A stretch of DNA of 64,000 bases from Anaerolineales bacterium. Its GTDB lineage: Bacteria; Chloroflexota; Anaerolineae; Anaerolineales; UBA4823. The notes under the pieces are model-generated. The model was not told where the DNA came from, ran no database searches, and saw only the letters and a list, made by a program, of their open reading frames with translations. Location of the stretch: NCBI GenBank assembly GCA_003105035.1, contig PQAL01000018.1, positions 1 to 64,000 on the forward strand. The letters are read 5' to 3'. Shown one piece after another: positions 10,852 to 25,839 of the stretch; within the stretch, counting starts at the first letter, position 1, and the number at the start of each line of letters is the position of its first letter. The position numbers and the translations under genes were made by a program.

Positions 10852-13068
10852 TTATGGTGCTGCGACTGGTGGGCGGGTCAGGGTGGTGACATCACCACGG
10901 ACAGCCTGGATGCTGTCGTACAGGACCTGCAGGATGTACTTTCCGTTGTGGACAAAGGCACCTGGATCCTTCTGGACCCACTGATAGTTATAGGCAGCGC
11001 GAAGCAGGTTGGGCGTCCAGGAAGCGAAGGCATTGTCTCTGGTCATCTCTTCCGGATCTGCGGAACCGTTGGCATTGGTGTCGATGAAGAAGTAAGGGTA
11101 GCTTGATCCAGCATACACGAGGGGTGATTTCGCCACATCGTTGGCGTACTTCTGGATAGCGGCATAGAGCAGCTCAGCTTCGGTAGCAACTTCATCATAT
11201 ATACCCTCGGTAGTGTTGGCATCACCGTCATAATCGGTGGTTCCCATGCGGATGGTCTCAGGCCCTTGATTGCCTGGGTGACAGGCCAAGCACAGCTCGG
11301 TGTTGACACCCAGCTCATGCGAGTCATGGCAGGTCACACAGCTCTGACCGGCATCTACGTGGGCATGGTGACCCAGGTAATCCTTGCCGGTGAACTCATA
11401 GGCACCCTTGGCTTCGGTACCGAACAGGGTGGCCCCTGCACCGAAGTAGTGCGGGTTCCGGAAGCGCAGGTCTGCTGAAACGGTATCAGCGGGCAAATCG
11501 CCGATGGCTTTGTTGACGCTCACGGTAGACTCACGACCCTGATGGCAGGTGATGCACAGGTTAGCTGGGGCACCTTCGCCGAAAGTCAGGACGGCACCGC
11601 TGGGGAATTTAGCCCCAGCAACCGTGTACGTGGCTGGGAATTGCGTCACATCGTGGCAGGTCTGGCATTCAAAACCTTGAGAGACCGGCTGGGCGATAGT
11701 CACACCAGTCACTTTGTCGGAGGAAGCGGCAGCTTCCTTGACGAAGAGTGGGAGGCCAGCAGCAGAGTGGCACTTTGAGCACGTGGCGGGAACTTCGCCC
11801 TCGGCATCCCAATCACGAAAGGCCATCTCGGTGGCAGCAAAGTGACCAGCGTCGATGCGGTGCATGGCTGTCATGTCAATCGGGGTGCTTAGCTGTGTGT
11901 TCAAATCAGCAATTGAATCATACAGCAGCTCGATCACGTACTTGGCGTTATGCGCATAAGCACCGGGATCCTTGACCGATAGCTGGTAGTTATAAGCTGC
12001 TTTCAGCATGCGAGCGGTCCATGAAGCATAAGCAGCGCCATCGGCACTGGATTCTTCAGCATCGACTACACCATTGTCATTAGTATCATTGATGAAATAT
12101 GGGTAGGTGGCTGGATCATATGCAACGGGGGCCTTGGCAACTTCCTTTGCGTAAGCCTGGATGGCTTTCAAAGTCACGTCCTGGAGACCGGTGAGCTCAG
12201 CTGCTATGCCTTCGGTCGTATCGCCGTTACCGTTGTAATCTTCCGTCGAGCCGTTCATGCGGATCTTTACCAGGTCTTCGGCAGAGGCGACGTTACTATG
12301 GCATTCCTGGCAGAGTTCGACTTTAATTTCCAGGGTGTGCTGGTCGTGGCAGCTGATGCAGGTGTTCAGGTTATCAGCATGCAAGAACTTGCCATCATAG
12401 GTTTGGTCGGCATACTGGTAGCCACCACCGGTAACGGTTCCGTACTGCGTTGCAGCGGCTGCAAAATAGTGGATATTGGTGAAACGCAGATCGGCGGAGA
12501 CGGTATCCAGTGTGTCGGTCAGGACATTGGTGGCGATCGCATTATCGATGCTGGAGCCTGAAGCGCGTCCTGTATGGCAGGCAACGCAGCGGGCTTCGGG
12601 TCCGAGGTCGTTCACAGCTACGCCTGACGGGAAGGTGACTGTGTCCAGGGCAACTGCAACTTCGTTATGGCAGGCTTCGCAGGTGATACCATTGCTGACT
12701 GGCTGAGCTGCGTCGACCACGCCCGGAGTGGATCCATCAGCGCCAACGAAATCTTCAAAGCCGGTGTCGGAATGGCACTGGGCGCAGCCGGTGGGTACTT
12801 CCTGGGGATCATCTCCATCCCAGTGGCGGAAAGCTTCGGCAGTCGAATCTGCGTGGCCAGAGCCAGCCCAGGCCGCTTCAATTTCTGGAACCAGGACGAC
12901 CGGAGTCGGGCATGGTTCGGCAGTTGGGCAGGCAGGCGCTTCGGGGCAGGTTGGACATTCCTGGACCGTCGGAACCACGGTGGGGGTTGCTGGGGAAGAA
13001 CAAGCTGCAATAGCCAGGGCCAGGCCGATCAGCAGCAACCCAACATATAGATATTTCTTGTAATTCAT
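10852..13068 (-). CDS. Decaheme c-type cytochrome lipoprotein with internal duplication and EF-hand-like loops
   Basis: 738 residues. The signal peptide ends in lipobox IAAC (Cys23), followed by a Cys/Pro-rich segment without heme motifs. Ten CXXCH motifs follow in two sets of five: CAQCH, CEACH, CVACH, CISCH, CQECH, then CSKCH, CQTCH, CITCH, CVTCH, CLACH. The halves (about 65-395 and 400-730) repeat the same landmarks: HxADSTAEAFRHWD versus HFAATEMAFRDWD, TVSADLRF twice, and KDPGAYAHNAKY versus KDPGAFVHNGKY. Each half carries a calcium-loop-like DTNxNGxxDxEE. It is an exported, lipid-anchored electron carrier. GAGGAG lies 6 nt before the ATG. Partner and acceptor are unknown; it sits beside the response-regulator operon and is probably controlled by it. 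Confidence 0.92.
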   Translation of the reverse strand: MNYKKYLYVGLLLIGLALAIAACSSPATPTVVPTVQECPTCPEAPACPTAEPCPTPVVLVPEIEAAWAGSGHADSTAEAFRHWDGDDPQEVPTGCAQCHSDTGFEDFVGADGSTPGVVDAAQPVSNGITCEACHNEVAVALDTVTFPSGVAVNDLGPEARCVACHTGRASGSSIDNAIATNVLTDTLDTVSADLRFTNIHYFAAAATQYGTVTGGGYQYADQTYDGKFLHADNLNTCISCHDQHTLEIKVELCQECHSNVASAEDLVKIRMNGSTEDYNGNGDTTEGIAAELTGLQDVTLKAIQAYAKEVAKAPVAYDPATYPYFINDTNDNGVVDAEESSADGAAYASWTARMLKAAYNYQLSVKDPGAYAHNAKYVIELLYDSIADLNTQLSTPIDMTAMHRIDAGHFAATEMAFRDWDAEGEVPATCSKCHSAAGLPLFVKEAAASSDKVTGVTIAQPVSQGFECQTCHDVTQFPATYTVAGAKFPSGAVLTFGEGAPANLCITCHQGRESTVSVNKAIGDLPADTVSADLRFRNPHYFGAGATLFGTEAKGAYEFTGKDYLGHHAHVDAGQSCVTCHDSHELGVNTELCLACHPGNQGPETIRMGTTDYDGDANTTEGIYDEVATEAELLYAAIQKYANDVAKSPLVYAGSSYPYFFIDTNANGSADPEEMTRDNAFASWTPNLLRAAYNYQWVQKDPGAFVHNGKYILQVLYDSIQAVRGDVTTLTRPPVAAP

Positions 13069-13354
13069 AGATTTCTCCTCATGAGGGAATAGAAATTTTT
13101 ACAGCAGATACAGATAGGGTAAAGGTATCAATAATCTTATTAGGCTCCTCCTTTGGCGAAAAAATATTAAATCACTTCGAAAGTGGGCAGACCTATTAAC
13201 ACCAGCAGAATGTAATTGAATACACCATTAATAATAGGTTGAACACCCTATAGAATTCTACCATAAAATTAGGGCATAATGAGTAGATTGTATTAAAATT
13301 CTCAAACAGAATGGGCGAATCTAGATTAAAGAATTTTTTCAAGATTTAAACGAA
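13069..13354. promoter_or_regulatory. AT-rich regulatory region of the decaheme cytochrome gene
   Basis: Non-coding stretch upstream of the decaheme gene. It contains the 18-bp operator-like sequence at 13234-13251 and a further ATAGGGTAAA at 13114-13123. The same ATAGGGTAAA occurs on the other strand upstream of the octaheme operon (25704-25713). No gene is seen. Confidence 0.55.
13234..13251. promoter_or_regulatory. Operator-like site, ATAGGTTnnnCACCCTAT
   Basis: Imperfect inverted repeat ATAGGTTG-AA-CACCCTAT. It matches the site at 25661-25678 at 15 of 18 positions, differing only in the three central bases. Both lie upstream of multiheme cytochrome genes. A regulator shared by the island, possibly the NarL-type protein encoded at 13825-14478, is inferred. 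Confidence 0.55.
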
Positions 13355-13395
13355 AACCTTGCGCCATGAGTGTTTTACCCGCGCAGCGCAAGGTT
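13355..13395 (-). terminator. Terminator after the 96-residue membrane protein gene
   Basis: AACCTTGCGC (13355-13364) pairs with GCGCAAGGTT (13386-13395), a perfect 10-bp stem with a 21-nt loop, followed on the minus strand by TTTTCGTTT. It starts 24 bp past the stop at 13419 and ends the sensor-regulator operon. Confidence 0.7.
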
Positions 13396-13418
13396 ATATA
13401 ATGCCAGTATCGAGAGTA

Positions 13419-13709
13419 TTACTTTACTTCCTTATGTTCTTCTGCCTTGTTGGCTCCTTGAGCAAACAGATAGATGGTAAGAATGACAATCATGCCGATC
13501 ACCATCCCAGCGATTTCCGGCCAGCGAGCAGAAAATTCGAGCACCAAGCCACGCCCGCCAACCGATAATTGATTCCCAAATTTTACGACTGCGTTTGTGA
13601 TACGGGTCAGATTTACCGTGAGATAAGCTACACCTACCAGAGCCAAGACAGTGAACGGGATGGCTATTACCATGGTCCAAAAAGTGGCGTGAAATTGTAC
13701 TTTACGCAT
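13419..13709 (-). CDS. Small two-helix membrane protein, unknown function
   Basis: 96 residues from ATG 13709, with GGAGG 5 nt upstream; the longer frame has no support. Two hydrophobic helices (about 8-33 and 64-85) are joined by a loop of about 30 residues (TRITNAVVKFGNQLSVGGRG). The C-terminus is short and charged (KAEEHKEVK). No family recognised. It lies downstream of the response regulator, with its own promoter. A role with the sensor kinase or the cytochromes is possible but unproven. Confidence 0.7.
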   Translation of the reverse strand: MRKVQFHATFWTMVIAIPFTVLALVGVAYLTVNLTRITNAVVKFGNQLSVGGRGLVLEFSARWPEIAGMVIGMIVILTIYLFAQGANKAEEHKEVK

Positions 13710-13730
13710 ACCAACCTCCACAATAAGAAT

Positions 13731-13781
13731 AAGCCTGCCTGTATTTATACATATCATATAAAACAGGCTGGCTTCCGTCAA
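13731..13781 (-). promoter_or_regulatory. Promoter inside a long inverted repeat, for the 96-residue membrane protein
   Basis: On the minus strand TTGACG (13781-13776), a 17-bp spacer and TATGAT (13758-13753) form a near-consensus sigma-70-type promoter. The 12-bp arms AAGCCTGCCTGT (13731-13742) and ACAGGCTGGCTT (13763-13774; 11 of 12 complementary) flank the -10, one arm in the spacer. Because only one arm is transcribed, a DNA operator is more likely than an RNA hairpin. Confidence 0.6.
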
Positions 13782-13824
13782 TAGGGACAATGTGGGATTT
13801 TTATAATAGGGTAATAAGCCCAAA

Positions 13825-14478
13825 TCAAGCAGAGATCAGGCCTTTCCTTATGGCATATTTTACCAATTCGCTTTTTGAGTGTAGTTCGAGTTTACGCATG
13901 AGATTTTCACGGTGGCGTGCTACGGTGTGCTTGCTGATTTGGAGTGTCTCACCAATCTCATCATTGCTGAGACCTTCGGCAAGCAGGCTAAGCACTTCTT
14001 GCTCGCGTGTCGTCAAGCCGTCGAGAGAACTTTTTTCGCTTTCCTGAGATGACCGGCCTAAAAAGTCGGCCACCAGGGCTTTGGCAAGAGATGGGTAGAT
14101 ATAAATCTCACCTGCAAAGGCGGCACGGATCGAGGTGATCAAGTCTTCAGGGGCAGCGCGCTTGGGTACATAGCCAGACGCACCCGCCTGTAGCATTTCG
14201 AAAAAGTACTGCTCGTCTTCATGGATGGTCAGGGCGATCACCGAGATATTTGGATATTGTTCTTTGATCTGGCGAGTAGCCTCGATACCTGAAATATCCG
14301 GAAGGGTGATATCCATCACGATGACATCCGGCAATAGTTCCTTGGCTTTTTCTAAGGCCCGTGTGCCGCTATCAGCTTCACCGACAATTTGCATGTCTGG
14401 TTGACCTTCAAGGAGCATACGCAGACCAGTGCGAACAACTTGGTGATCGTCAACGAGCAATAATTTAATATCAGGCAT
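13825..14478 (-). CDS. NarL/LuxR-type response regulator
   Basis: 217 residues from ATG 14478, with GGAGG 8 nt upstream. The receiver domain (1-120) has the acidic pair in LLVDDHQVVR, phospho-acceptor Asp in VIVMDITLPD, the Thr/Lys positions in ALTIHEDE and YVPKRA. The C-terminal LuxR helix-turn-helix has LTTREQEVLSLLAEGLSNDEIG and SKHTVARHRENLMRKL. The start overlaps the end of the kinase gene by 8 bp. Position in the middle of the cytochrome island suggests it controls the respiratory genes in response to the kinase signal. Confidence 0.95.
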   Translation of the reverse strand: MPDIKLLLVDDHQVVRTGLRMLLEGQPDMQIVGEADSGTRALEKAKELLPDVIVMDITLPDISGIEATRQIKEQYPNISVIALTIHEDEQYFFEMLQAGASGYVPKRAAPEDLITSIRAAFAGEIYIYPSLAKALVADFLGRSSQESEKSSLDGLTTREQEVLSLLAEGLSNDEIGETLQISKHTVARHRENLMRKLELHSKSELVKYAIRKGLISA

Positions 14479-15955
14479 CTTGTGTCCCTCCGTAAATGGG
14501 TACATTAACTTGAATCAGCGTGCCTTTACCAGGCTGTGAGAGGATGGTGCATGTTCCACCTACCAAAGCAGCGCGTTCCACCATACCCAAAAGGCCAAGG
14601 GCAGTAGACTTGCCTTGTTTCTTTTTCAATACTGCGTCTGTAATGAACCCCTGGCCGTTATCTTCCACCCGCAGGTAGATATTATCTTCTGTATAGTCGA
14701 GTTGAATGTCAATGCGAGTGGCATTTGCATGGCGAATTACATTCGTGATGGCCTCCTGGGCGATGCGGAATACAACCGCTCTGAGATCAGGGTTCAATTT
14801 TGGTTTACCGCCATGGCTGACTAGAGATATTGGGATGCCTGACCGGTCGCTTATATCGCTGGTATACCACCGCAATGCGGCCAGCAAGCCCAGATCATCC
14901 AGCTGTGGAGGATGCAGTCCGGTGACCAGGTGCTGCAGCTCGACCACACCATCACTGGCTAGCTTCTCCAGCTGGATGGCTTGTTCAATCGCCCTGTTTT
15001 TGTTGGCGGGGATCATTTCCGACATGCCGCGTAAACCCATACCCAGGGCAGTTAAGGTCTGGCCGGTTTCATCGTGTAGCTCGCGGGCGATGCGTTGGCG
15101 TTCAGCTTCCTGGGCAATGACCGTCCGGTGAAGCAGCTCTCCGCGTAGCTCTTCGAGGCGTTGCTGTTCGGCGATTTGGGCATCACGCAAGGTTTCAATT
15201 TGCTGGTTGCTCTCTACCTGAAAAGCCCGTAGGGAGCGAATAATGAAAACTGAAGCCAACGCTGCCATCAGCGCCCTAAAAACCTGAATTGGGAAACCAA
15301 ATATCTCAAGGAAGACATTGGTATTTAAGATTGAGGATGGGAAAATTACGCTTGGAGAGGAAAATAGCTGCCCCACAATTCCATACAAGCCGAACGCAAT
15401 GGCAGCCAGCATTACGTCGCGGCCGATACCCGGCATACCCAATTGGATAAATCGACCACGCTGTAATATTAATCCCCAAAAAGTAAGCAAGGCACCGGGA
15501 ATTGCGAGGGCATAACGGGTGTATACATCTGCAGCAATGGCGCGTGCTTCGGGGCTGGCGTTGCTGAACAACACTCCCAGTAAACCGACCACCCAAATGG
15601 CAGTAATGGTCGAAAGCATTCCGATGTATAACTTACGTTTTTCTACACCGGTTATCAAGCGCGCCCCAAAGGCTATTAAAAACAGAAATGACGACGCCAG
15701 GGCAATTAATCGAAACGGCAGGACCCAGGGAGGATTACTTATCCCGTAGATCTGGTTATTCATGATCAGGAACATCTCAAGCCATTCATGGCAACCATGG
15801 ATCAACCCAAAACCGATCAACGGGCGGAGAGCGCGTGAAAAATCCATCTTGGAAGAATGGCCGATTTCAAGCAGAACTGCCAGTCCCATCGCAAAGAAAG
15901 ACAGTCCATAAAAAAAGTACACAATAATGATGTTTCGGGTAAAAAATTCAGCCAT
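14471..15955 (-). CDS. NarX/DegS-type membrane histidine kinase
   Basis: 494 residues. The first ~240 contain seven hydrophobic helices, starting IIIVYFFYGLSFFAMG, with little extracytoplasmic domain, so the signal is probably sensed in or at the membrane. A coiled linker (QIAEQQRLEELRGELL) leads to HisKA_3 with the phospho-acceptor in RIARELHDETGQTL. The HATPase domain has QEAITNVIRHA (N box), VEDNGQGF (G1) and LGLLGMVERA. It pairs with the overlapping response regulator gene. Quinone pool or redox sensing would fit the context but is inference. Confidence 0.93.
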   Translation of the reverse strand: MAEFFTRNIIIVYFFYGLSFFAMGLAVLLEIGHSSKMDFSRALRPLIGFGLIHGCHEWLEMFLIMNNQIYGISNPPWVLPFRLIALASSFLFLIAFGARLITGVEKRKLYIGMLSTITAIWVVGLLGVLFSNASPEARAIAADVYTRYALAIPGALLTFWGLILQRGRFIQLGMPGIGRDVMLAAIAFGLYGIVGQLFSSPSVIFPSSILNTNVFLEIFGFPIQVFRALMAALASVFIIRSLRAFQVESNQQIETLRDAQIAEQQRLEELRGELLHRTVIAQEAERQRIARELHDETGQTLTALGMGLRGMSEMIPANKNRAIEQAIQLEKLASDGVVELQHLVTGLHPPQLDDLGLLAALRWYTSDISDRSGIPISLVSHGGKPKLNPDLRAVVFRIAQEAITNVIRHANATRIDIQLDYTEDNIYLRVEDNGQGFITDAVLKKKQGKSTALGLLGMVERAALVGGTCTILSQPGKGTLIQVNVPIYGGTQDA

Positions 15956-16188
15956 CCGCTAATATTCTCAAGTGGATTTTTAACTGACGACAAATACACG
16001 ATAAAAGTAAATTTTCATCTATCCAAGTTGAGTGAATGTGACTTTCATTCGATCATCTCCTCCACTGGCTCTCGCAGATGGGGAATTCTACGCATCCATC
16101 CACCACCTGGAGAAATGTACCCAAATACGCCAGCTGAGTCGACCTGAATGACCCATCCTTCACCTCTTTCGGCAATCGGTGTAATGTT

Positions 16189-17898
16189 CTATTTTTCCGG
16201 GGCACCTGCGTTGATCCAATCAACCACCACCTGAAGCTCAGCGGGGGTCAATTGGGCAAAATGCGGGGTTGGACCGGATTGTTTTTGGACCAGCGGGCTA
16301 CTTGCGGCATCACCGGAGATGATCACGGGGCCATTCACAGATCCTTGCAAAGCTGTCTGATAAGTTGTGAGATTCAAACCCTGTATGCCTTCCTCACCAT
16401 GGCACGCACCGCATTTTGATTTTAACAATGGCCCGATGGTCGCATCGTATGTTAACGCACCGGATAAATTCAATGGTGCCGCCGGGGTGGGAGTGGGAGG
16501 TAAGCTCGAAAGGATCGTCTCTCGCAATGCTGGGGCGTCTAGACCGGCGAATTTCCACTCAATCCCATGACAGGCACTATTCGAACAGAAAGATGTGTTG
16601 TCGATACCACCTGGATTGTTGGTGGTGTGGCAGTCACTGCAGGTTTCATTAAACACCTGGTTGTGCATGGCGATCCAGTTGGCATTCAGATGCGACTGCG
16701 GTTCAGGACCGCGTGGGATCTCGACATTGGCAACGAAATCGGATGGCCCAGCGACCTCTGGAATGGTATGGCAAAGGTTACACTCGAGCCGGATGGCTTG
16801 CTGAGATGAATCCATGTGCTTACCATCATGGCAGCGGAAGCAACCCGCGAAATACATGTGCCCCACGTTATCCGGATGAGCATTCCAGTCTGATTTTTGA
16901 TCCAGGTTTACAGAGTTGACGAAGATGGTTTGGATATAGGATATGGCATTTTGTACGCTGCCGGGGTGGGCTGCATAATAATCAGGATAGTAGGTCTGGT
17001 AATAATTTTCCAGCCCATAAATACCGTTCAGGCCTTCCTGTTGCGAAGTATATGGCACGCTGAGAACTTCGATACCTTTAGCCCGGATATCTGGAATGGC
17101 TTTATCGATAAACCCACGCGCGAGAGCCGCATCCATCTGATCCTGTGGCTGAGGCACAAGGTGGGTGATACGGTTGTGGCAGGTGACACAATCCATTTCC
17201 TTCAGGTCAGCATCCGTAATATCAGCAGTATTGAAACTTGAGGAAATATCCGTATATTCCGTGTAAGTCCCATCGGAATTCGTGACCCGGATATAAGGGA
17301 TATTCTGTTGTAATTCATCGGTGGGATAGTATTGAACCTTGTTTTCGACGTGCCAGTGGATGCCTTTGCCGAGTCCCTGACGGGAGGTACCGCCACCTGT
17401 CTTCAGGCCGATAAAGATGCTGTAGGGGGTATTTTCAATATTACTCACAAAGCGTTTGTCTTCACGCAGGCTGTCGTCTGAGAATTTATCAGGGTTGTGG
17501 CATTTTTCGCAGGTATCACGAGCTGGGCGCATGTTTGTGGCGTAGAGCGGATAGGTGTAATTATGAAAAATCGTAGCCGTGACGTGCCGGATGTCACCGG
17601 CTTTGCGGGTTATTTGATTTGCAATAAAACCACGGCCGATGTGGCATTCCACACAGTCCACGCGGGCATGCGGGGAGGCTTGATAAGAGGAGTACTCTGG
17701 AGGCATAGTGTGGCAGGTTGTCCCACAGAATTGTGGGCTATTGGTATATTGCCAGCCGTAGGCAGCCCCGATTAGCAGGATGACTGTCAGGATTCCCAGG
17801 ATCGCATATGGGAGCACCTTCACCCAGGTTTTAGACTCGGATGGGGGAAAGAAAAAATTATGCAGGGCATTGCCCAGACGTTTAATAAATTTTTTCAT
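16189..17898 (-). CDS. NapC/NirT-like multiheme cytochrome c with fused C-terminal monoheme domain
   Basis: 569 residues. An N-terminal anchor helix (about 27-50) precedes a NapC-like start, YTNSPQFCGTTCHTMPPEY. Heme sites in order: CGTTCH (a CX3CH form), CVECH, CEKCH, CVTCH, CFRCH, CNLCH, CSDCH, CSNSACH (a CX4CH form) and CGACH, nine in total. After a Pro/Thr/Ala linker (about 465-475), the last ~95 residues are a separate monoheme domain ending INAGAPEK. A near-identical domain ends the neighbouring cytochrome b protein. NapC-type proteins take electrons from quinol and pass them outward. Last gene of the operon. Confidence 0.88.
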   Translation of the reverse strand: MKKFIKRLGNALHNFFFPPSESKTWVKVLPYAILGILTVILLIGAAYGWQYTNSPQFCGTTCHTMPPEYSSYQASPHARVDCVECHIGRGFIANQITRKAGDIRHVTATIFHNYTYPLYATNMRPARDTCEKCHNPDKFSDDSLREDKRFVSNIENTPYSIFIGLKTGGGTSRQGLGKGIHWHVENKVQYYPTDELQQNIPYIRVTNSDGTYTEYTDISSSFNTADITDADLKEMDCVTCHNRITHLVPQPQDQMDAALARGFIDKAIPDIRAKGIEVLSVPYTSQQEGLNGIYGLENYYQTYYPDYYAAHPGSVQNAISYIQTIFVNSVNLDQKSDWNAHPDNVGHMYFAGCFRCHDGKHMDSSQQAIRLECNLCHTIPEVAGPSDFVANVEIPRGPEPQSHLNANWIAMHNQVFNETCSDCHTTNNPGGIDNTSFCSNSACHGIEWKFAGLDAPALRETILSSLPPTPTPAAPLNLSGALTYDATIGPLLKSKCGACHGEEGIQGLNLTTYQTALQGSVNGPVIISGDAASSPLVQKQSGPTPHFAQLTPAELQVVVDWINAGAPEK

Positions 17899-17911
17899 AG
17901 TGTGTACTCCA

Positions 17912-19120
17912 TCATTTTTCTGGTGCTCCAGCCTGTATCCAGGCGATTACCTGGTTTAGCTCGTCGATGGTCAGTTGACCCGGGTGATTCCCGGCAGATT
18001 GCTTTTGGACCAGGACGCTATTATCCGGATCATTGGGAATAATCGCCGGGCCAGAATTGCCTCCGGCAAGTGCCGCCTGATAAGTCGCCAGACTTAACCC
18101 GCCCACTTTGGTGACACCATGGCAGGAACCGCAGCGATTGCGGAATAGACCCGAGAAAAAGCCATCCCAGGTCATGGCAGCCACTTCATCACCCGGCTCG
18201 AGTGTTGGTGGGGGTGTGGGTGAAGGCCGCGGGGTAGGAGTCACGGGTACATATACCTGGGCTGTCTCACCCTGGGGAACAGTAGTTAGGGCAGTTTTTT
18301 CTACAAAGCTGAACTTATACACGCCGAAGCCAAAAGCAACCGTGAATAGCAGGGCTGCAGGAAAGTAAAACATCTGGCGTTTGCGGATCACTTCAGGTGA
18401 GGGTCTTTTAAGAGCCATACCAGATTCAATCCGGGCAAGCTCAGCCGGATGCTCGTGGCGCATTTCCTCGCGATTTAGTTTTCCTGTGAACATGCTCTTA
18501 TTGAAGTGCTTTACATGAACGTGGTAAAAATGCCAGATAATAATTGCCAGCACAGCGAGGATTGCCTCAGCGCCGTGGGCAGCCTTTGCTGCTGGGATGA
18601 ACTCTCCTGGCAAAACACTGGTTGTAGTGATCGGGTTCCACATCATGAAACCTGTCAGCCCCATGATCACCGTACCCCACACAACCGCCAGGTACTCCAT
18701 TTTTTCAGCATAGTTGAAGCGCCCGTAGTACCCCCGGTGTTTTCTAAAACCCAAATAGTACAGCACATCTTGAATCAGGTGCTGCGCGTCTTCGATGCCT
18801 GGTAGCATCGTCCACGGAACGCGTAGCACAGCCACCTTATAACCCAAAACCAGGACATGATAACCGCTGACGATCATCATAACGAAAGCACTGATATGAT
18901 GGATGATGCGTACCTGTTCGATGCCACCTAACAAGTAAATAAAAGTATCGCTTATTGGAGAGGCAGAGAACTTTTGGATCAAGCCGGTGAAACCCAAGAT
19001 GGTGAATGAGGCCAGGAAAACGATATGCTCAATGCGTTGGGAGATATCGAACCGGTTGTACGTGATGAGCTTGTCTGATGCAGTTGCCTGGGTTGGAGAT
19101 GGCATGGTTGTCTTATCCAT
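17912..19120 (-). CDS. Cytochrome b561-like membrane protein fused to a monoheme cytochrome c domain
   Basis: 402 residues. Residues ~20-220 contain four helices with histidines suited to b-heme ligation (RIEHIVFL, IIHHISAF, AKAAHGAEAIL, WHFYHVHVKHF), as in formate dehydrogenase gamma/cytochrome b561 proteins. A fifth helix (~265-285) leads to a Pro/Thr linker (VTPTPRPSPTPPP) and a C-terminal monoheme domain with CGSCHG, ending IQAGAPEK. It probably moves quinol electrons to the c-heme outside. It overlaps the upstream nonaheme gene by 8 bp. Paralog of the unfused protein at 20417-21160. Confidence 0.9.
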   Translation of the reverse strand: MDKTTMPSPTQATASDKLITYNRFDISQRIEHIVFLASFTILGFTGLIQKFSASPISDTFIYLLGGIEQVRIIHHISAFVMMIVSGYHVLVLGYKVAVLRVPWTMLPGIEDAQHLIQDVLYYLGFRKHRGYYGRFNYAEKMEYLAVVWGTVIMGLTGFMMWNPITTTSVLPGEFIPAAKAAHGAEAILAVLAIIIWHFYHVHVKHFNKSMFTGKLNREEMRHEHPAELARIESGMALKRPSPEVIRKRQMFYFPAALLFTVAFGFGVYKFSFVEKTALTTVPQGETAQVYVPVTPTPRPSPTPPPTLEPGDEVAAMTWDGFFSGLFRNRCGSCHGVTKVGGLSLATYQAALAGGNSGPAIIPNDPDNSVLVQKQSAGNHPGQLTIDELNQVIAWIQAGAPEK

Positions 19121-20420
19121 GGGTCACCTCTTCTGTCAGCTGGTCACCCTGTTCCGTTGTGTTATCTGCCCCAGGTTCAGGGGGAGTTACTTCCGTGGGT
19201 ACTGATTCCGGGGCAGGTTTGGCAGATTGGCCTTTGTGGCGAGTTTTTACGTACACAGAATGACCGACATCCAGGCCGACCAGCACGAGCATAAAGCCAA
19301 GCACACCGGGTATGAACAGGCTATAGAAGAGATTCACATAATATACTGCAGGAAAATGACTGGCTGATGGGATGTAATGCGACATCCAGGCGGCGGGGAA
19401 ATTTCTGGTGGCATCGGGGTGGCAGACCTTGCAACGAGCCAGCAGGTTTTCCTGCATCTGCAGGCCAGTGTTAGGATCATCCACCTTGGAAATGTCATGC
19501 ACACCGTGGCAATCATAACAAACGGGCTTGTTTGTTTGTGCATCGGGTGATTGTTTCTCGAATAAGGTGACTGTCGTCCCGTGAAAATCAGATATATAGG
19601 TATTCAATACATCGGTCGAGATACCGTATTTATCCATCAACTCAGGATTCGTATGGCAGGTAGCGCATAGCTGTGGTGAGTTAAGGCGGAAGGCGGCAGT
19701 CGTCGGGTTTCCAATGTTGTGAACGCCATGGCAATCGATGCAGGTGGGAACATCAGTGTTCGCTTCTTCAGTCAAGGCAGCACCATGGACGCTATTTACG
19801 TATTTCTGATAGATAGCGTTATGGCACTGCGCGCAGGTGAGAGGGATGTTCAAGCGAGCCTGGGGCAATAGCTCACCAGTATCGGGATCTGTCCATTGCT
19901 GGACATTATGCGAACCGTGGCAATCAGAACAGACCGCTGCCTCGCGTTTACCTTCAGCTTGGGCGGCAGCATGGACACTGTCCATCGTGAGGGTATATTG
20001 CCCTGAATGGCAGCGGTCACATACACCGGTAAGCTGCAGGGTGGCATCGCGCGGATCTGATGCCTTGAATTCGGGGTGAGGGTACTCTCCCAGGTTGGTG
20101 TGGCATTGGACACATGCATATCCATCCTGACCATGGATGGAGGCTGCGTAGGCCTGAGGATCGACGTAAAGGTCCAGCGTCTCTCCATTTTCAAGCTGCA
20201 TGGAAATGCCTGGAGTGCCATGGCAGCCCAGGCAGGTTTCGTTACTCACGATCAGACTGACATTGCCCCCGGTTGGAGAGCCCTGCTGGTATGAAATGCC
20301 GCTTGTAACCTGCCCAGAAGGAGCAGCTGCTACATTGATCACAATGAAGACGATTGACACTAGGGTGATCAATACTGTACCCACCAGGTAGATGAACAGG
20401 TGTTTACGTGCAGCCATCAT
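19113..20420 (-). CDS. Nonaheme c-type cytochrome with N- and C-terminal membrane helices (copy B)
   Basis: 435 residues. A signal-anchor helix (about 8-31) is followed by nine CXXCH sites: CLGCH, CVQCH, CDRCH, CSDCH, CAQCH, CIDCH, CATCH, CYDCH, CKVCH. Several carry the DCHGxHNI/DCHGVHDI pattern of tetraheme/NrfH-like repeats, with SVHG spacers supplying distal His ligands. A C-terminal helix (about 360-383) and an acidic Pro/Glu tail follow. Heme order and spacing match the nonaheme protein at 21157-22263, indicating gene duplication. GGGAG lies 10 nt before ATG 20420, which overlaps the upstream cytochrome b gene by 4 bp. Confidence 0.92.
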   Translation of the reverse strand: MMAARKHLFIYLVGTVLITLVSIVFIVINVAAAPSGQVTSGISYQQGSPTGGNVSLIVSNETCLGCHGTPGISMQLENGETLDLYVDPQAYAASIHGQDGYACVQCHTNLGEYPHPEFKASDPRDATLQLTGVCDRCHSGQYTLTMDSVHAAAQAEGKREAAVCSDCHGSHNVQQWTDPDTGELLPQARLNIPLTCAQCHNAIYQKYVNSVHGAALTEEANTDVPTCIDCHGVHNIGNPTTAAFRLNSPQLCATCHTNPELMDKYGISTDVLNTYISDFHGTTVTLFEKQSPDAQTNKPVCYDCHGVHDISKVDDPNTGLQMQENLLARCKVCHPDATRNFPAAWMSHYIPSASHFPAVYYVNLFYSLFIPGVLGFMLVLVGLDVGHSVYVKTRHKGQSAKPAPESVPTEVTPPEPGADNTTEQGDQLTEEVTHG

Positions 20421-21160
20421 GACTTGACTTCTCCCTGAGTTTCCTTGGGGTTTTCCTGCTTCACCAGGCGTTCATACTCAAGGGAATGATAGGTACGCAT
20501 ATCTTCCTCATTAAGCCAGCCCGAAAAGATGCTCAAGTTGAGCCTCTCCAGGTGAACATGGTAAAAATGCCAGATGATGATGAAAATCGCCGTGACAATG
20601 GCTTCAGTGCTGTGGGCCATGATCGCCCCCGGGATCACTTGCCCTGGAAGCAGGCGGGTTACCACTTCCGGGAACCACATGATGAAGCCGGAGATGACCA
20701 TGATGCCGATGGCAAAGAATAGGAACCAATAGGTTACCTTCTGTTCGAAATTATATTTACCGAAGGCTGGTTTTTGTTTCTTTATGTAGATCAGGTAAAG
20801 CACCATCTTCCAGGCATCTTTAACATCATTAAGCGTGGGTAGCATGTCTCCGGGTAATTTCCGCCGGATGATCTGGTAGATGATTTTGCCCAGATGGTAG
20901 ATGACCAGTGCAGTAAGCAGCAGTGCAGCAATATGGTGAATTTGCTGCAGCAGGTTTAATCTTGCTGGGGTGGAAATAATCGCCTGGCTCCAGGTGGAGG
21001 TGTTATATTTTTGGGGTAATCCGGTCAGCAGCAAGACAAAGATACTGATCATCAATACCGCATGTTCCCAGCGTTGGCTGAGGTTGAAACGCGGGAAAGT
21101 GCGGACGAGTTTGACGCGCATCGCTGAGGAGGATGAGGTTGCTTCCTTTGGGGTCTTCAT
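20417..21160 (-). CDS. Cytochrome b561-like quinone-interacting membrane protein (copy A)
   Basis: 247 residues with four helices and conserved histidines (QRWEHAVLM, QQIHHIAALL, AHSTEAIVT, IIIWHFYHVHLERL) as expected for a diheme b-type subunit related to formate dehydrogenase gamma. It lacks the C-terminal c domain of its paralog at 17912-19120. It overlaps both neighbours by 4 bp, so it is translationally coupled to the two nonaheme genes. Likely transfers electrons between quinone and the nonaheme cytochrome. Confidence 0.9.
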   Translation of the reverse strand: MKTPKEATSSSSAMRVKLVRTFPRFNLSQRWEHAVLMISIFVLLLTGLPQKYNTSTWSQAIISTPARLNLLQQIHHIAALLLTALVIYHLGKIIYQIIRRKLPGDMLPTLNDVKDAWKMVLYLIYIKKQKPAFGKYNFEQKVTYWFLFFAIGIMVISGFIMWFPEVVTRLLPGQVIPGAIMAHSTEAIVTAIFIIIWHFYHVHLERLNLSIFSGWLNEEDMRTYHSLEYERLVKQENPKETQGEVKS

Positions 21161-22263
21161 AGGCTCCTCCTCGCCCGATCAACCATGAACCTGATGAACT
21201 GCAAGATCACATAAATTCCGCAAACAATAAGGATGGCCGGGGTAAAAAATGAGTAAAACAGGTCTAGATAATAAAGGAATGGGCTGCGCTCCAGGCTCAC
21301 CTTGTAGTGACCGGTCCAAGCGCCAGTCCAATTTGGACTGACACCCGGGTGACATTTCTGGCAGGTAACCAGCAAGTTAGCTGGATTGACGGATGAATTA
21401 GGGTCATCCGGTTTCAGGATATCGTGGATACCATGGCAATCGGTACATACTGCCGAGTTGTGCTGTACTGTCGGCCAGCGGGCTTCATATACTGAGACAT
21501 CCACACCATGCCAGGATAAATTGTACAGGCTGTAAACATCGGCTGAAAGCCCATATTTCGCCATCATTTCCTCGTTGGCATGGCAGCTGGCGCACAAGTC
21601 AGGTTCCTCGACTTTGAATTGCTGGGTGCGTGGATCCTGGATGTTATGCACCCCATGGCAGGTGGTGCAGACTGGTACATCGGGGTTGGCTTCTTGAATC
21701 AGGGCATTACCGTGCACACTGTTTTGATAAATGCCAAATTCCTGGGTGTGGCAGTTGCCACAGGTCTGCGGGATCAAGGTACGCGGCTGGTCGGGAGGTT
21801 TGACATAGTGTGATCCATGGCAATCGGTGCATACCGGGGCATTCAGATTACCTGCTTCAGCTACCTGGGCATGCATGCTATCCAGGGTCTTGGAGTAGTT
21901 ATCGGGGTGGCATTTTTGACATGCCTGGTAGTACTGACGGGTCAGCTCGCGTTTCGTCTGGTAGCTGATCTCAGGGTGAGGGTAGCTGGTGATGTTCGTA
22001 TGGCAGGCTTCGCATTCGATCCCATTGGGGCTGTGAACCGAGCCTTGCAACTGCGCAGGGTCGATATACAGGGAGACCACCTCCCCACTCGGCAGGGTCA
22101 TTTTTAAATCAGTATTGGAATGACAGCTTAAGCAGTATTCCTCGGTTTGCTGCTTCGGCTCACTGGCTTGTGATGGTGAAAACCAGAACAGGCTCAAAAT
22201 TAAGATCAACCCGACTAGTATGAGTATCGCCGGTAATTTGACGTTTGATATACGCTTCGACAT
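21157..22263 (-). CDS. Nonaheme c-type cytochrome with N- and C-terminal membrane helices (copy A)
   Basis: 368 residues from ATG 22263, with AAGGAGG 8 nt upstream; the longer frame overlaps the small membrane-protein gene and lacks a ribosome site. A signal-anchor helix (about 9-30) precedes nine CXXCH motifs (CLSCH, CEACH, CQKCH, CTDCH, CGNCH, CTTCH, CASCH, CTDCH, CQKCH). The C-terminal helix IVCGIYVILQFIRFM lies near residue 350. Same heme arrangement as copy B, with parallel landmarks YCLSCH/TCLGCH, YPHPE, NSVHGxAL and EANPDVP/EANTDVP. First gene of the duplicated nonaheme/cytochrome b module. Confidence 0.92.
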   Translation of the reverse strand: MSKRISNVKLPAILILVGLILILSLFWFSPSQASEPKQQTEEYCLSCHSNTDLKMTLPSGEVVSLYIDPAQLQGSVHSPNGIECEACHTNITSYPHPEISYQTKRELTRQYYQACQKCHPDNYSKTLDSMHAQVAEAGNLNAPVCTDCHGSHYVKPPDQPRTLIPQTCGNCHTQEFGIYQNSVHGNALIQEANPDVPVCTTCHGVHNIQDPRTQQFKVEEPDLCASCHANEEMMAKYGLSADVYSLYNLSWHGVDVSVYEARWPTVQHNSAVCTDCHGIHDILKPDDPNSSVNPANLLVTCQKCHPGVSPNWTGAWTGHYKVSLERSPFLYYLDLFYSFFTPAILIVCGIYVILQFIRFMVDRARRSL

Positions 22264-22276
22264 CGCCCGGTCCTCC

Positions 22277-22450
22277 TTAATAGCCATTGTCTTCACTTTT
22301 TTGATAATCCTCTGTGGGAGGAGGGGGTTTTGCGACGATACCGAAACGGCGTAACAGATAAGAGATGCCAAACAAGATAATTAACGGCACCAGGCAACGC
22401 GCGATACATAACAAGGCTACAAAAACTGGGTTGGTTGATGCGTCACCCAT
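22277..22450 (-). CDS. 57-residue single-pass membrane protein of the cytochrome operon
   Basis: A short gene: ATG at 22450 with GGAGG 8 nt upstream, stop TAA at 22279-22277. The stop runs directly into the GGAGG of the next cytochrome gene. The product has a short polar N-terminus (MGDASTNP), one hydrophobic helix of about 24 residues interrupted by Arg/Cys (VFVALLCIARCLVPLIILFG), a basic stretch (LLRRFG) and a Pro-rich, acidic tail. Tight spacing and strong ribosome sites on both sides make it real. It is likely a small subunit or assembly factor. No family recognised. Confidence 0.8.
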   Translation of the reverse strand: MGDASTNPVFVALLCIARCLVPLIILFGISYLLRRFGIVAKPPPPTEDYQKSEDNGY

Positions 22451-22472
22451 AATTTTATCCTCCGCTCACAGC

Positions 22473-22492
22473 CAGGAGATGTACAACTCCTG
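22473..22492. promoter_or_regulatory. Dyad in the leader between NrfD gene and small membrane-protein gene
   Basis: CAGGAG (22473-22478) pairs with CTCCTG (22487-22492) around ATGTACAA, whose core TGTACA is itself palindromic. It lies 22 bp upstream of the small gene in the only non-overlapping gap of the operon (135 bp). It could be an internal operator or an RNA-processing hairpin. Confidence 0.35.
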
Positions 22493-22585
22493 ACGGGCAA
22501 GCATGGACAATCGAAATAGTGGCAAGCAAGTTGCTATAAAGGAAATTTTTCACTATTAAGTATAACCTATCCACAAGATCACGGT

Positions 22586-23812
22586 TTATGAATGTTCCTC
22601 TTTGCCAAAAAGGGGTAGGAATTTCACCCCGAGTGTTAACATGGCCAGGGCATATCCAATAATCCCTATGGCGACACCCCATTCAGGTAGGCCAGGGAAA
22701 TAATTCCCGGGTGGCAGCTGATAGAGGGTGCCAGGAGAATAGCTCAGTGGAACGAATAAGCCGCCAACGGTGACGTTCCACCGATTGATCAGGATGCCCA
22801 AGACGGCAAACGCTGCTCCAATCACCAGGAACACTGGCCTGCGATTAAAGCGTGGCGTCAGGAAGAGCACTGCTGGTAGGATCACCCCCAGGAAAATCTC
22901 AAAGACCCAAAAGGAAAAATTATATGGAGTCTGCTGGCTAAGCAAATTAAACGCTTCACTGACAGAGGGTGTGCGTCCATAATAGGTGACCGCAGCCAGG
23001 TCCCAAAATCGGATATATCCGTAAATCAGTAAGGCAAAACCACTGAAACGAGCAATGGCGCGCAGGATGTCATCCGCGATGGATTTCTTACCCGTGATCC
23101 ACTCGATGATATACGCAATGGCCATCGTCAGAGCTGGTCCAACTGCCACCGCCGAAAGGATAAACATGATCGGCATACTGGGCTTGAACCAAATTGGTCT
23201 TGATTTTACGATTCCGTATGTAGCACCAAGGGAAGATTGGTGGAGCAAAGAGATGGCTAACCCTAACAGGGCCAGTACAGGAGCTGCCTTGTGCAGGTAT
23301 TGTGCACCAACCTGGATCCATTTATATTTCCTGAAGAAGCGTGACTCGGCAATAATCGGGGCAAACTCGACCAGCATGATCGTCAGGTAAATCGTGATGC
23401 ACCAGGTGATTTCCCATAAGACAGAATGGATATTCCAGTAAATCCATGGGTGCCAAAATCTGTCGGGCCGGCCGATGTCCATGATCAGGGTTAACAAGGC
23501 GCAGGAATATCCGATGAAACCGACAAAAACCGCCAGGGGGATGATCGGTTTAAAGCGTTTCAAGCCAAACAGGTAAACCACCGCCGAAAGGGTAAACGCA
23601 CCGGCTCCTAAGGCGATTGATGAGAGGTCAATAGTAATCCACAGGCCCCAGGGGACAGAATCGGTCATGTTGGTGACGTACAGGCCATTCCAAAAAACTG
23701 TCACCGCCGAGAGCAAGCCGATCAAAATGCATAAACCAAGGAAGCCAAGCCAGGCAAGCATCGCCGGGCTGATTGAGAATTGTTTTCGTTCACCAAGAGC
23801 TTGTGTAGCCAT
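22586..23812 (-). CDS. NrfD/PsrC-family integral membrane subunit
   Basis: 408 residues with about ten hydrophobic helices. Family landmarks include VPWGLWITIDLSSIALGAGAF, DIGRPDRFWHPWIYWN, LLHQSSLGATYGI and SWVL-like mid-helix polar residues. NrfD-type subunits bind quinone at the outer face and exchange electrons with a partner 4Fe-4S protein; some may translocate ions. The start abuts the stop of the ferredoxin gene. With the ferredoxin and cytochromes it forms the membrane module seen in Nrf, Hmc, Tmc and Cbc-type complexes. No molybdopterin catalytic subunit accompanies it. Confidence 0.93.
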   Translation of the reverse strand: MATQALGERKQFSISPAMLAWLGFLGLCILIGLLSAVTVFWNGLYVTNMTDSVPWGLWITIDLSSIALGAGAFTLSAVVYLFGLKRFKPIIPLAVFVGFIGYSCALLTLIMDIGRPDRFWHPWIYWNIHSVLWEITWCITIYLTIMLVEFAPIIAESRFFRKYKWIQVGAQYLHKAAPVLALLGLAISLLHQSSLGATYGIVKSRPIWFKPSMPIMFILSAVAVGPALTMAIAYIIEWITGKKSIADDILRAIARFSGFALLIYGYIRFWDLAAVTYYGRTPSVSEAFNLLSQQTPYNFSFWVFEIFLGVILPAVLFLTPRFNRRPVFLVIGAAFAVLGILINRWNVTVGGLFVPLSYSPGTLYQLPPGNYFPGLPEWGVAIGIIGYALAMLTLGVKFLPLFGKEEHS

Positions 23813-24661
23813 TTATAAGCCCTCCTTGGGGATGACATAGTAGACGCTTGGCTCAGTACCCAGCTCTTCGCGCAAACGGATGGTTGCTTCAGTTGCAATT
23901 GCCTGTGACACCTTGCTGTTAGGATCGTTTAGGTCTCCAAAGAGGCGGGCACTTACCGGGCAAATGTTGACACAGGCAGGTGTCGCTTCCCTATCTTCGC
24001 CGGGTACGAAGCCTGAAGCCAGGCCTCCATCGATCCGTTGGATGCAGAATGTGCATTTCTCAACGACTCCGCGCGGGCGGCGAGCCACTTCCGGGATCCC
24101 CCAGGTGGGAATGTATGGATTTTCAGCTGTATATTCCTGCCAGTTAAATTTTCGGGCGTCATAAGGGCAGGCGATCTCACAATAACGGCAGCCGATGCAG
24201 CGGTCATAGTTCATCACCACCAGGCCGTCATTGCGGTGATAGGTTGCCTTGACCGGGCAGACTTCTACGCAGGGTGCGTCACCGCAGTGCAGGCAAGGCC
24301 GGCTGAAATAGAACGGCGTACCTGTGGAGGTTTTTTCATCAACGACGATATTCCAGGGTTTCTCAGGTCGTTTCAATTCCATATCCACCCACACGTCATT
24401 GGTGGCTGAACACGCCCGCAGACAGTACTCGCACCCGATGCATTTATCCAGGTTGATCACCATCCCCCAGTGATGGCCACTGATATCGCTGGTATTCTCT
24501 TCAAGCCCTTCTACCTGCTCCTGTTTAAAACTGGCAAAGGGTGAGAACGGACCGGTAGTGAGCAGTTGGGCAGCTACAACCGAGCCCGCGGCTGTGCCAC
24601 CGAGGATCAAAAAGTCTTTGCGGGATAGATCGAGCTTAACTTTTGTTTTCTTTTTGCTCAT
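23813..24661 (-). CDS. Four-cluster 4Fe-4S ferredoxin subunit (HmcB/DsrO/NrfC type) with export signal
   Basis: 282 residues from ATG 24661, with GAGG 9 nt upstream; it overlaps the upstream octaheme gene by 26 bp. Residues 14-40 resemble a Tat-like signal (SRKDFLILGGTAAGSVVAA) but have Ser-Arg-Lys rather than a clear twin Arg. Sixteen cysteines in four sets (CIGCEYCLRAC, CLHCGDAPCVEVCP, CIGCRYCEIACP, CTFC with CVNICP) bind four [4Fe-4S] clusters. This is the electron-transfer partner of NrfD. Two extra helices or lipids are not seen. Confidence 0.93.
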   Translation of the reverse strand: MSKKKTKVKLDLSRKDFLILGGTAAGSVVAAQLLTTGPFSPFASFKQEQVEGLEENTSDISGHHWGMVINLDKCIGCEYCLRACSATNDVWVDMELKRPEKPWNIVVDEKTSTGTPFYFSRPCLHCGDAPCVEVCPVKATYHRNDGLVVMNYDRCIGCRYCEIACPYDARKFNWQEYTAENPYIPTWGIPEVARRPRGVVEKCTFCIQRIDGGLASGFVPGEDREATPACVNICPVSARLFGDLNDPNSKVSQAIATEATIRLREELGTEPSVYYVIPKEGL

Positions 24662-25643
24662 CTTCTTTTTCCTCAATGACGGTAATGCCTCGGCTGACGA
24701 CCCAGGCAGCAGCTCCACCAATCATTAAGCCGACGATGGCACCCTGAGCCAGCCCGATATATAAGCGGTTCGTGCTTTGCGATTGTAAATCGTCAATCTG
24801 CTGTTGTTGCGTCTGAACTTGTTGCTCTAAAGTAGCTGCGTCAACTGCGTTTAATTCCTTCACTTCCCCGGTTAATTTCACAATCTCATCCCGGGTGTGG
24901 ACGGTGTCTTGATGGCAGGCGATACAGGCATCTGAACCGACGGAAAATGTGTGACCGGTTGGTACAAGACCTTCGATGGGGTCATCGGTGCGGGGGCTGG
25001 TATACATGTGGCAGTTGCTGCACTCAAGACCGGCATTGGCATGCGTGCTGTGAGTGAACGATCCACCCCGCTCCTGGTGGCAGGTAGTACACAGGGCCGT
25101 GACCGATTCTGCTTTCGGGGTCTGGGAGTGCGGATTATGGCATGCCTGGCATTGAATGCCCTCCTGGCCATGAACGGACGCGTGCCATTCGTCTGTGGTC
25201 GTCTTGTGGCAGGTGCCGCATAATTCGGCATCTGGAGTGATCGGCATGGGTTGTTCCGGGTGGTTGGGCTGGAAGGGTCCGTGACATGCTTCGCAGGTCA
25301 CACCTTCTTCGGCATAATTCCCCGTATTGCCCTCAAAACCTGTCGTATGGCATTCAAGGCAGGATACCTGACTGCCTAATTCTGTCCAGTCCCGCTGGAA
25401 GATCGGTGCTGAAAATGCCAACGCATGACGGGTATCCTGCCAGGCAGTGTAAATATTCTCATGACACTGTGCACAGGATTGTGATCCAGCAAAGCCTGGA
25501 ACCTGGTATGCTGGCTCTGCTACCGGCGCGGCTGTGACAGGTTGGGCCACCGCCAGCAGGGCACCGACGATAGCGCTGACACAAAATACAATTCCAAACA
25601 CCACCCAGGTACGGTTTTTCTGGATCGCCTTGAGAATTTTCAT
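24636..25643 (-). CDS. Octaheme c-type cytochrome with C-terminal coiled coil and membrane helix
   Basis: 335 residues from ATG 25643, with GGAG 9 nt upstream. A signal helix (about 12-36) is followed by eight CXXCH sites: CAQCH, CLECH, CEACH, CGTCH, CQACH, CTTCH, CSNCH, CIACH. The region resembles the cytochrome c554 family (start GSQSCAQCHENIYTAWQDTRHA). A Gln-rich coiled coil (about 265-290, EQQVQTQQQQIDDLQ) and a membrane helix (about 297-318) with a charged cytoplasmic tail follow. First gene of the operon. It probably accepts electrons from the ferredoxin/NrfD module, with the coiled coil serving oligomerisation. Confidence 0.92.
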   Translation of the reverse strand: MKILKAIQKNRTWVVFGIVFCVSAIVGALLAVAQPVTAAPVAEPAYQVPGFAGSQSCAQCHENIYTAWQDTRHALAFSAPIFQRDWTELGSQVSCLECHTTGFEGNTGNYAEEGVTCEACHGPFQPNHPEQPMPITPDAELCGTCHKTTTDEWHASVHGQEGIQCQACHNPHSQTPKAESVTALCTTCHQERGGSFTHSTHANAGLECSNCHMYTSPRTDDPIEGLVPTGHTFSVGSDACIACHQDTVHTRDEIVKLTGEVKELNAVDAATLEQQVQTQQQQIDDLQSQSTNRLYIGLAQGAIVGLMIGGAAAWVVSRGITVIEEKEDEQKENKS

Positions 25644-25660
25644 CGCATTCTTCTCCATAT

Positions 25661-25678
25661 ATAGGTTATTCACCCTAT
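25661..25678. promoter_or_regulatory. Operator-like site upstream of the octaheme/NrfD operon
   Basis: ATAGGTTATTCACCCTAT matches 13234-13251 at 15 of 18 positions (ATAGGTTnnnCACCCTAT). It lies only 18 bp before the start codon, at or downstream of the transcription start, which would fit a repressor. A second related element, TTTACCCTAT, is at 25704-25713. Confidence 0.55.
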
Positions 25679-25800
25679 TAATCTAACATGAGAATTTGGC
25701 TATTTTACCCTATATTGATGATATTAGAAACTGCGGAAATATTCAGTTAGGAATGTCATTTTTAATCATAGATAAATGTAACGCCTGTGCGAAGTAAATA

Positions 25801-25839
25801 ATTTTAAAAGAGAAGGCTGGCGCATAAATGCCAGCCTTC
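25801..25839 (-). terminator. Terminator of the collagen-stalk octaheme gene
   Basis: GAAGGCTGGC (25812-25821) pairs with GCCAGCCTTC (25830-25839), a perfect 10-bp stem with an 8-nt loop, followed on the minus strand by TCTTTTAAAAT. It separates the octaheme lipoprotein gene from the octaheme/NrfD operon. Confidence 0.85.

Follow-up and report, generated by a model that had tools for sequence, protein, structure and literature searches.

A conserved palindrome as candidate operator of a NarL-type two-component system at a multiheme-cytochrome island of Anaerolineales

The response regulator NarL recognizes sites with the 7-2-7 consensus TACYYMT-n2-AKRRGTA, while the DosR box carries GGG and CCC eight bases apart. 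NarL is reported to bind a 16-bp inverted site as a dimer, to repress frdA from sites at the start and to activate narG from upstream (PMC4549865), and NreC of Staphylococcus to bind a GC-rich palindrome (PMC8139620). Here we analyze a stretch of 64,000 nucleotides (the window) from an Anaerolineales bacterium (assembly GCA_003105035.1, contig PQAL01000018.1), in which a similar sequence is repeated upstream of two multiheme-cytochrome transcription units. We read this sequence as the probable operator of the NarL/LuxR-type response regulator encoded in the same island and paired with the overlapping sensor kinase gene (Table 1), and place the probability of this reading at roughly three in four; the best reading of the locus as a whole is an autoregulated two-component system that would control a Qrc-like cytochrome/NrfD module. 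The computation establishes that the palindrome is genuine, that it is conserved, and that across the order Anaerolineales it is linked to this regulator family; that the regulator is the protein that binds it, we infer.

Direct reading of positions 13234-13251 (ATAGGTTGAACACCCTAT) and 25661-25678 (ATAGGTTATTCACCCTAT) bears out the preliminary description, in which the two 18-mers agree at 15 of 18 positions, the three at the center being the exceptions. The shared pattern ATAGGTTnnnCACCCTAT has exactly two matches in the genome (4.45 Mb), which share the contig of the window at a distance of 12.4 kb from each other, so that the random distribution named there as a possible refutation is not what the genome holds: the exact pattern is found at the two island places only. 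Across 61 genomes (this one and 60 relatives), the symmetric form ATAGGKTNNNNAMCCTAT returned both window places and one in a relative (G010). The 15-letter pattern with up to two mismatches gave 6 rows in the own genome versus 9 in the reversed control, and the symmetric pattern with three mismatches gave 8 matches in the window alone versus 5.9 expected, no better than chance. Since this window count is uninformative, it is the exact copies and their conservation that carry the argument.

To define the conserved unit, we took the promoters of four genes of the cluster (P0002, the cytochrome at 10852, the small membrane protein and cyt25870) in the own genome and its relatives, 36 in all, with the near-duplicate genomes G013 and G028 both counted, and submitted them to expectation-maximization from random starts without supplying the word noticed earlier. 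The top motif, T(A/G)GGGT(A/G)AATTACC(C/T)A, was present in about 27 of the 36 and reached a log-likelihood of 142.6 versus 51.5-59.1 in 12 shuffled sets, these being mononucleotide shuffles given 25 starts each where the real set was given 60. The conserved unit is the inner 16-mer of each 18-mer (13235-13250 and 25662-25677), and the predicted operator is a 16-bp palindrome, TRGG(G/T)T-n4-A(A/C)CCYA, whose inverted repeat is imperfect in its interior. We scored sites with a symmetric 16-column weight matrix at thresholds of 6.5, 8, 8.5 and 10. Scores of at least 10 occur at only three places in the window (13235, 13807 and 25662), a scan that is partly circular because the promoters used for training include these places; the tests outside the family are not circular. 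The preliminary description had listed the first and last of these correctly and overlooked the good copy between the regulator and small membrane protein genes. Its additional ATAGGGTAAA elements stand where it placed them (13114-13123, plus strand, and 25704-25713, minus strand), but are only a half-site and part of a weak site. Sites scoring at least 8 were found at 7/12 P0002 promoters, 5/6 promoters of the 10852 cytochrome and 5/7 promoters of the small membrane protein, own genome and relatives together. A covariance model of the site gave no match at E ≤ 10 in the own genome, because 16 positions are too few.

The key test concerns the association of the site with the regulator, in and beyond the family in which the matrix was trained. 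Of 400 genomes of the order that were searched, 92 have an ortholog of the regulator at E ≤ 1e-80, and up to 350 nt past the regulator stop codon were scanned at 89 ortholog loci (13 from the own family, 76 from others). A site scoring at least 8 lies downstream of the regulator at 46 of the 89, and one of at least 10 at 32, compared with chance expectations for the same loci of 0.33 and 0.07 (means of dinucleotide shuffles) or 0.58 and 0.10 (means of symmetric column-permuted matrices). Collapsed by taxon, the site is present in 28/43 genera and 8/11 families; outside the training family it is present at 38/76 loci and in 21/34 genera. At the same threshold of 8, none was found downstream of 16 paralogous regulators that are 46-53% identical, and there was no site in 87 control stretches inside the kinase gene or in 53 stretches that lie 1550-1900 nt ahead of the regulator. 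Recognition-helix residues T185, V186, H189, R190 and E191 are identical in all 92 orthologs. Conservation in related species, whose absence would have spoken against the site, is thus positive in both the 36-promoter motif search and the regulator-ortholog loci.

The association also persists where the regulator and the cytochromes are apart. In one relative (G001), the kinase, the regulator and a small gene lie on one contig (C194) and the cytochrome cluster on another (C4); TTGGTTGAACACCCTA (score 8.3), which differs from copy 1 of the window in the second base only, stands between the regulator and the small gene (locus L103), while the promoters examined at the cluster (L056) have no site of at least 6.5, the lone match at that threshold falling at the edge of the FeS/NrfD genes (position 13514). 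Around regulators of other genera, 20 longer stretches (336 kb) hold 21 matches of at least 8.5, with 18 just past the regulator, two in front of a second cytochrome operon (L189:16597, L200:17926) and one elsewhere; the 18 are not independent of the 89-locus test, most of these loci being already known to bear the site. Three of the stretches (L190, L192, L207) have no match of at least 8.5. Downstream of the regulator in many of them lie a small protein and a cytochrome-FeS-NrfD set. This comparative linkage supports the earlier proposal that the sequence serves the island as a regulon site and that the NarL-type regulator encoded there is a candidate for its binder.

The placement of the copies relative to predicted promoters suggests how such a system would work. 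The small membrane protein gene has a sigma-70-like promoter, with copy 3 centered at about -68 and a half-site, CCCTA (13782-13786), abutting the -35 box; relatives have CCTATTG at the corresponding place. A TTTAC box in another family is directly adjoined by a weak copy (for example TGGGGAGCGTCCCGAA or TCGGGCGCCTGCCCGA), and at many loci of one genus a strong copy ends 73 bases before that box. Copy 1 would cover about -2 to +14 of the 10852-cytochrome transcript, given a predicted start site, and the P0002 copies lie near the predicted start site and in the leader. Copies upstream of the -35 suggest activation, and those that overlap the -10 or the start site point to repression. We propose that a membrane kinase would read some respiratory or redox cue and that the regulator would occupy the 16-bp palindrome as a dimer. 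From copies abutting or upstream of the -35 box, the regulator would activate the small membrane-protein gene beside it, and would do the same in other families for the cytochrome/FeS/NrfD operon that follows the regulator gene; in the own genome and family it would repress, or at least modulate, the cytochrome promoters that have a copy on the -10, start site or 5' leader. As an observation apart, the 350 nt past the regulator at L147, L149, L165 and their relatives, all of one genus, contain an apparent array of three copies at near-constant spacing, in the order strong, weak, weak abutting TTTAC.

Several results weigh against this interpretation. No site of at least 8 is found within the 350 nt at 43 of the 89 ortholog loci, and the site-less loci take in all those tested of families f2 (1), f3 (1) and f8 (3). 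Two draft genomes (G016 and G021, 85% completeness) have the site at a cytochrome promoter and no regulator ortholog at E ≤ 1e-60. Only 4 of 11 cyt25870 promoters have a site of at least 8, and the own cyt25870 promoter is without one. In the own genome the degenerate pattern TRGGKWNNNNWMCCYA is not enriched (16 places versus 27 in the reversed control); of 15 places examined, 11 are inside open reading frames and four are intergenic, two of these being copies 1 and 2, and one place in a coding sequence scores 12.5. Finally, the assignment of activator and repressor roles is weak because the start sites are predicted. With no genome-wide enrichment, we claim a regulon for the island only: the scan of the whole genome for the motif, which the preliminary description had recommended, revealed no wider regulon, and the genome-wide regulon looks confined to the island.

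Among other explanations, the one that fares best is that the palindrome is the operator of an unlinked transcription factor, such as a repressor, controlling both the kinase/regulator module and the cytochromes, an option that the preliminary description had also named. The two genomes in which no regulator was detected would fit it, as would the resemblance of copies on the -10 or start site to repressor sites, and a second conserved element at the P0002 promoter (element A, below) points to at least one further regulator acting there. However, the site follows this one regulator family through most genera sampled and none of the paralogs, and these loci showed no further predicted DNA-binding gene that they all share; an approximately 300-amino-acid (aa) neighbor upstream of the kinase in four loci has a zinc-ribbon match only, with no counterpart noted in the own cluster. 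We consider an unlinked factor unlikely, and favor the linked regulator since the site stays with the kinase/regulator pair, also where that pair and the cytochromes are apart. The neighbor itself, with its zinc ribbon at the C-terminus, is encoded directly upstream of the kinase at L189:5807-6721, L200:7137-8039, L201:7258-8169 and L202:6869-7777.

Two further readings, both highly improbable, were rejected on the varied positions of the copies and on the copies upstream of predicted promoters. The palindrome might be a core-promoter feature or the mark of an alternative sigma factor, and in two relatives (G013 and G031) the site GGGTATAATACCC does contain the -10 box; yet copies stand at about -130, at -68, abutting the -35, on the -10 and in the leader, and no match of at least 10 occurs in three flanking stretches of relatives (L107-L109, 16-19 kb each, 52 kb). 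It might instead be a 5'-leader RNA hairpin acting after transcription starts, as the location of copy 2 only 18 nt upstream of the P0002 start codon would allow, but predicted promoters lie downstream of copy 3 and of the regulator-linked copies elsewhere, and the inverted repeat is imperfect inside. Chance, or the shared ancestry of duplicated promoters, would agree with there being just two exact copies in the genome and has a negligible probability, being already contradicted by the controls, with conservation at half of the out-of-family loci against shuffle means below 1 for all 89.

Table 1. Candidate regulatory elements and genes of the cytochrome island, in window coordinates; scores are those of the weight matrix.
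Feature	Position	Strand	Remarks
Operator copy 1, TAGGTTGAACACCCTA (predicted)	13235..13250		upstream of multiheme cytochrome gene 10852-13068; score 11.8; equivalents at ortholog promoters
Operator copy 2, TAGGTTATTCACCCTA (predicted)	25662..25677		presumed 5' leader of cytochrome-FeS-NrfD operon; score 12.4
Operator copy 3, TAGGGTAATAAGCCCA (predicted)	13807..13822		between response regulator and small membrane protein genes; score 10.1; same location in relatives
Weak operator copy	25697..25712		contains ATAGGGTAAA of 25704-25713; score 7.5; second-best site of that promoter
Half-site ATAGGGTAAA	13114..13123	+	missing from list of matches of at least 6.5
Sigma-70-like promoter, TTGACG-17-TATGAT	13753..13781	-	small membrane protein gene; 10/12 consensus
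Putative -10, TAGAAT	13255..13260	-	gene 10852-13068; from sequence, not returned by promoter scan
Putative -10 region	25718..25726	-	cytochrome-FeS-NrfD operon; by-eye alignment with relatives, not returned by promoter scan
Element A, TTACATTTATC-n12-TGACATTCCTAACT	25745..25781	-	second conserved tandem element; upstream of cytochrome-FeS-NrfD operon
Multiheme cytochrome cyt25870	25870-27105	-	
Multiheme c-type cytochrome P0002	24636..25643	-	first gene of FeS/NrfD operon; presumed target
FeS subunit, DsrO/QrcC-like	23813..24664	-	DsrO (NCBIfam) 213.4 bits, above cut-off of 200
NrfD-type membrane subunit, QrcD-like	22586..23812	-	NrfD (Pfam) 1.8e-32; QrcD 277.5 bits, cut-off 570
Further cytochromes and b-type cytochromes	22371 to 16189	-	
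HisKA_3 sensor kinase	14471..15955	-	presumed partner; HisKA_3 8.7e-16, HATPase_c 2.4e-13; overlaps regulator gene
NarL/LuxR-type response regulator	13825..14478	-	proposed operator binder; Response_reg 3.8e-31, GerE 2.1e-20 (Pfam)
Small 96-aa membrane-like protein	13419..13709	-	presumed direct target; orthologs beside regulator in relatives
Multiheme c-type cytochrome	10852..13068	-	presumed target; Cytochrome_C7 2.5e-16

Element A is distinct from the palindrome. In P0002 orthologs it takes the form TTACATCYRTC-n10-13-TGACATTTCTTACT, also written TTACATYTATC ... TGACATTYCTWACT, with the two halves at about -41.5 and -64 in relatives as judged by eye. Of 38 family genomes, 5 have its strict pattern, always at the P0002 promoter, with none in the reversed control; it was first considered as the site of the regulator itself and dropped, being confined to P0002 promoters. 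CRP/FNR sites have the consensus TGTGA-n6-TCACA, and element A resembles CRP-type half-sites, through which a second regulator would also drive the cytochrome-FeS-NrfD operon. More tentatively, and with somewhat less than even odds in our judgment, the locus may be an Anaerolineales version of the enterobacterial FNR-plus-NarL logic, in which the pair activates its neighbor via -35-abutting sites and represses multiheme cytochrome operons at their start points, and a second regulator activates the same operon from the tandem site at about -41.5/-64. CRP-like palindromes such as TGTGACATTCGTCACA were also seen in neighboring intergenic regions (L055:2168 and L054:2522, both minus strand, and L103 after 10700).

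The genes of the island follow one another on the minus strand in the order cyt25870, cytochrome-FeS-NrfD, cytochromes/b-type cytochromes, kinase, regulator, 96-aa protein and 10852 cytochrome, and relatives within the family show this order again, complete or partial. A terminator-like hairpin (25812-25839, minus strand) lies between cyt25870 and the P0002 promoter; P0002 is therefore probably transcribed from a start of its own. In a search of genome contigs, its close named relatives (11/16 loci, 57-70% identical) come from Chloroflexota/Anaerolineales metagenome-assembled genomes. Pfam and NCBIfam searches returned no known sensor domain for the kinase and no match for the 96-aa protein. 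Elsewhere, HisKA_3-type kinases with two CxxCH motifs are encoded beside multiheme cytochromes (L190:33-1334, L198:3901-5472, L203:7869-9338, L204:1559-3115 and L205:16817-18295); kinase domains were confirmed in three of the five, and all five are possibly c-heme sensor kinases, of a different two-component system.

Compared with described systems, the locus has the features of the NarL/FixJ (LuxR-type) class, with a receiver and a C-terminal GerE helix-turn-helix in the regulator, an adjacent HisKA_3 kinase, and a 16-bp palindromic operator of dimer size that the regulator would bind. It shares with NarL, the nitrate response regulator of Escherichia coli, this domain make-up, the respiratory targets, the inverted repeat of equal total length, and the placement of copies at start sites as well as upstream of promoters. 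The regulator is not NarL proper, scoring 162.3 bits versus a cut-off of 250 for the NCBIfam equivalog, and we rejected the identity of its sites with the 7-2-7 sequence, of which they match 5/14 positions; the best 7-2-7 match anywhere in the 36 promoters is 12/14. The operator has its own word, TRGGG...CCCYA, of opposite polarity to TACCCCTAAAGGGGTA, an engineered narG site given in the NarL study (PMC4549865). NreC and DevR/DosR (Mycobacterium) are comparable as NarL-family regulators of anaerobic or respiratory genes, the sequence-level part of the likeness to DevR consisting of a single PDB similarity of the regulator (4e-33). The best-scoring NCBIfam models are MctS for the kinase (144.5 bits) and MctR for the regulator (182.4 bits), both far under the cut-offs of 700 and 300.

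The presumed targets, a multiheme cytochrome, a DsrO/QrcC-like FeS protein and a QrcD-like NrfD protein in a row, resemble the Qrc/Dsr/Hmc periplasmic cytochrome-menaquinone modules, and differ from Qrc in that QrcC (186.7 bits, cut-off 400) and QrcD stay below threshold; DsrM/K/J and QrcB were not identified among the genes examined. A literature search of open-access papers found no description of this regulator or operator; there seems to have been little work on regulation in Chloroflexota or on that of multiheme-cytochrome islands in Anaerolineae. With a conserved operator linked to a single two-component system, a defined DNA word, protein and gene set become available for testing, as does a handle on the signal governing an electron-transfer module in uncultured Anaerolineales. 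Taken together, these comparisons indicate a new operator, as judged from sequence, whose regulator belongs to a well-known class but has not itself been described.

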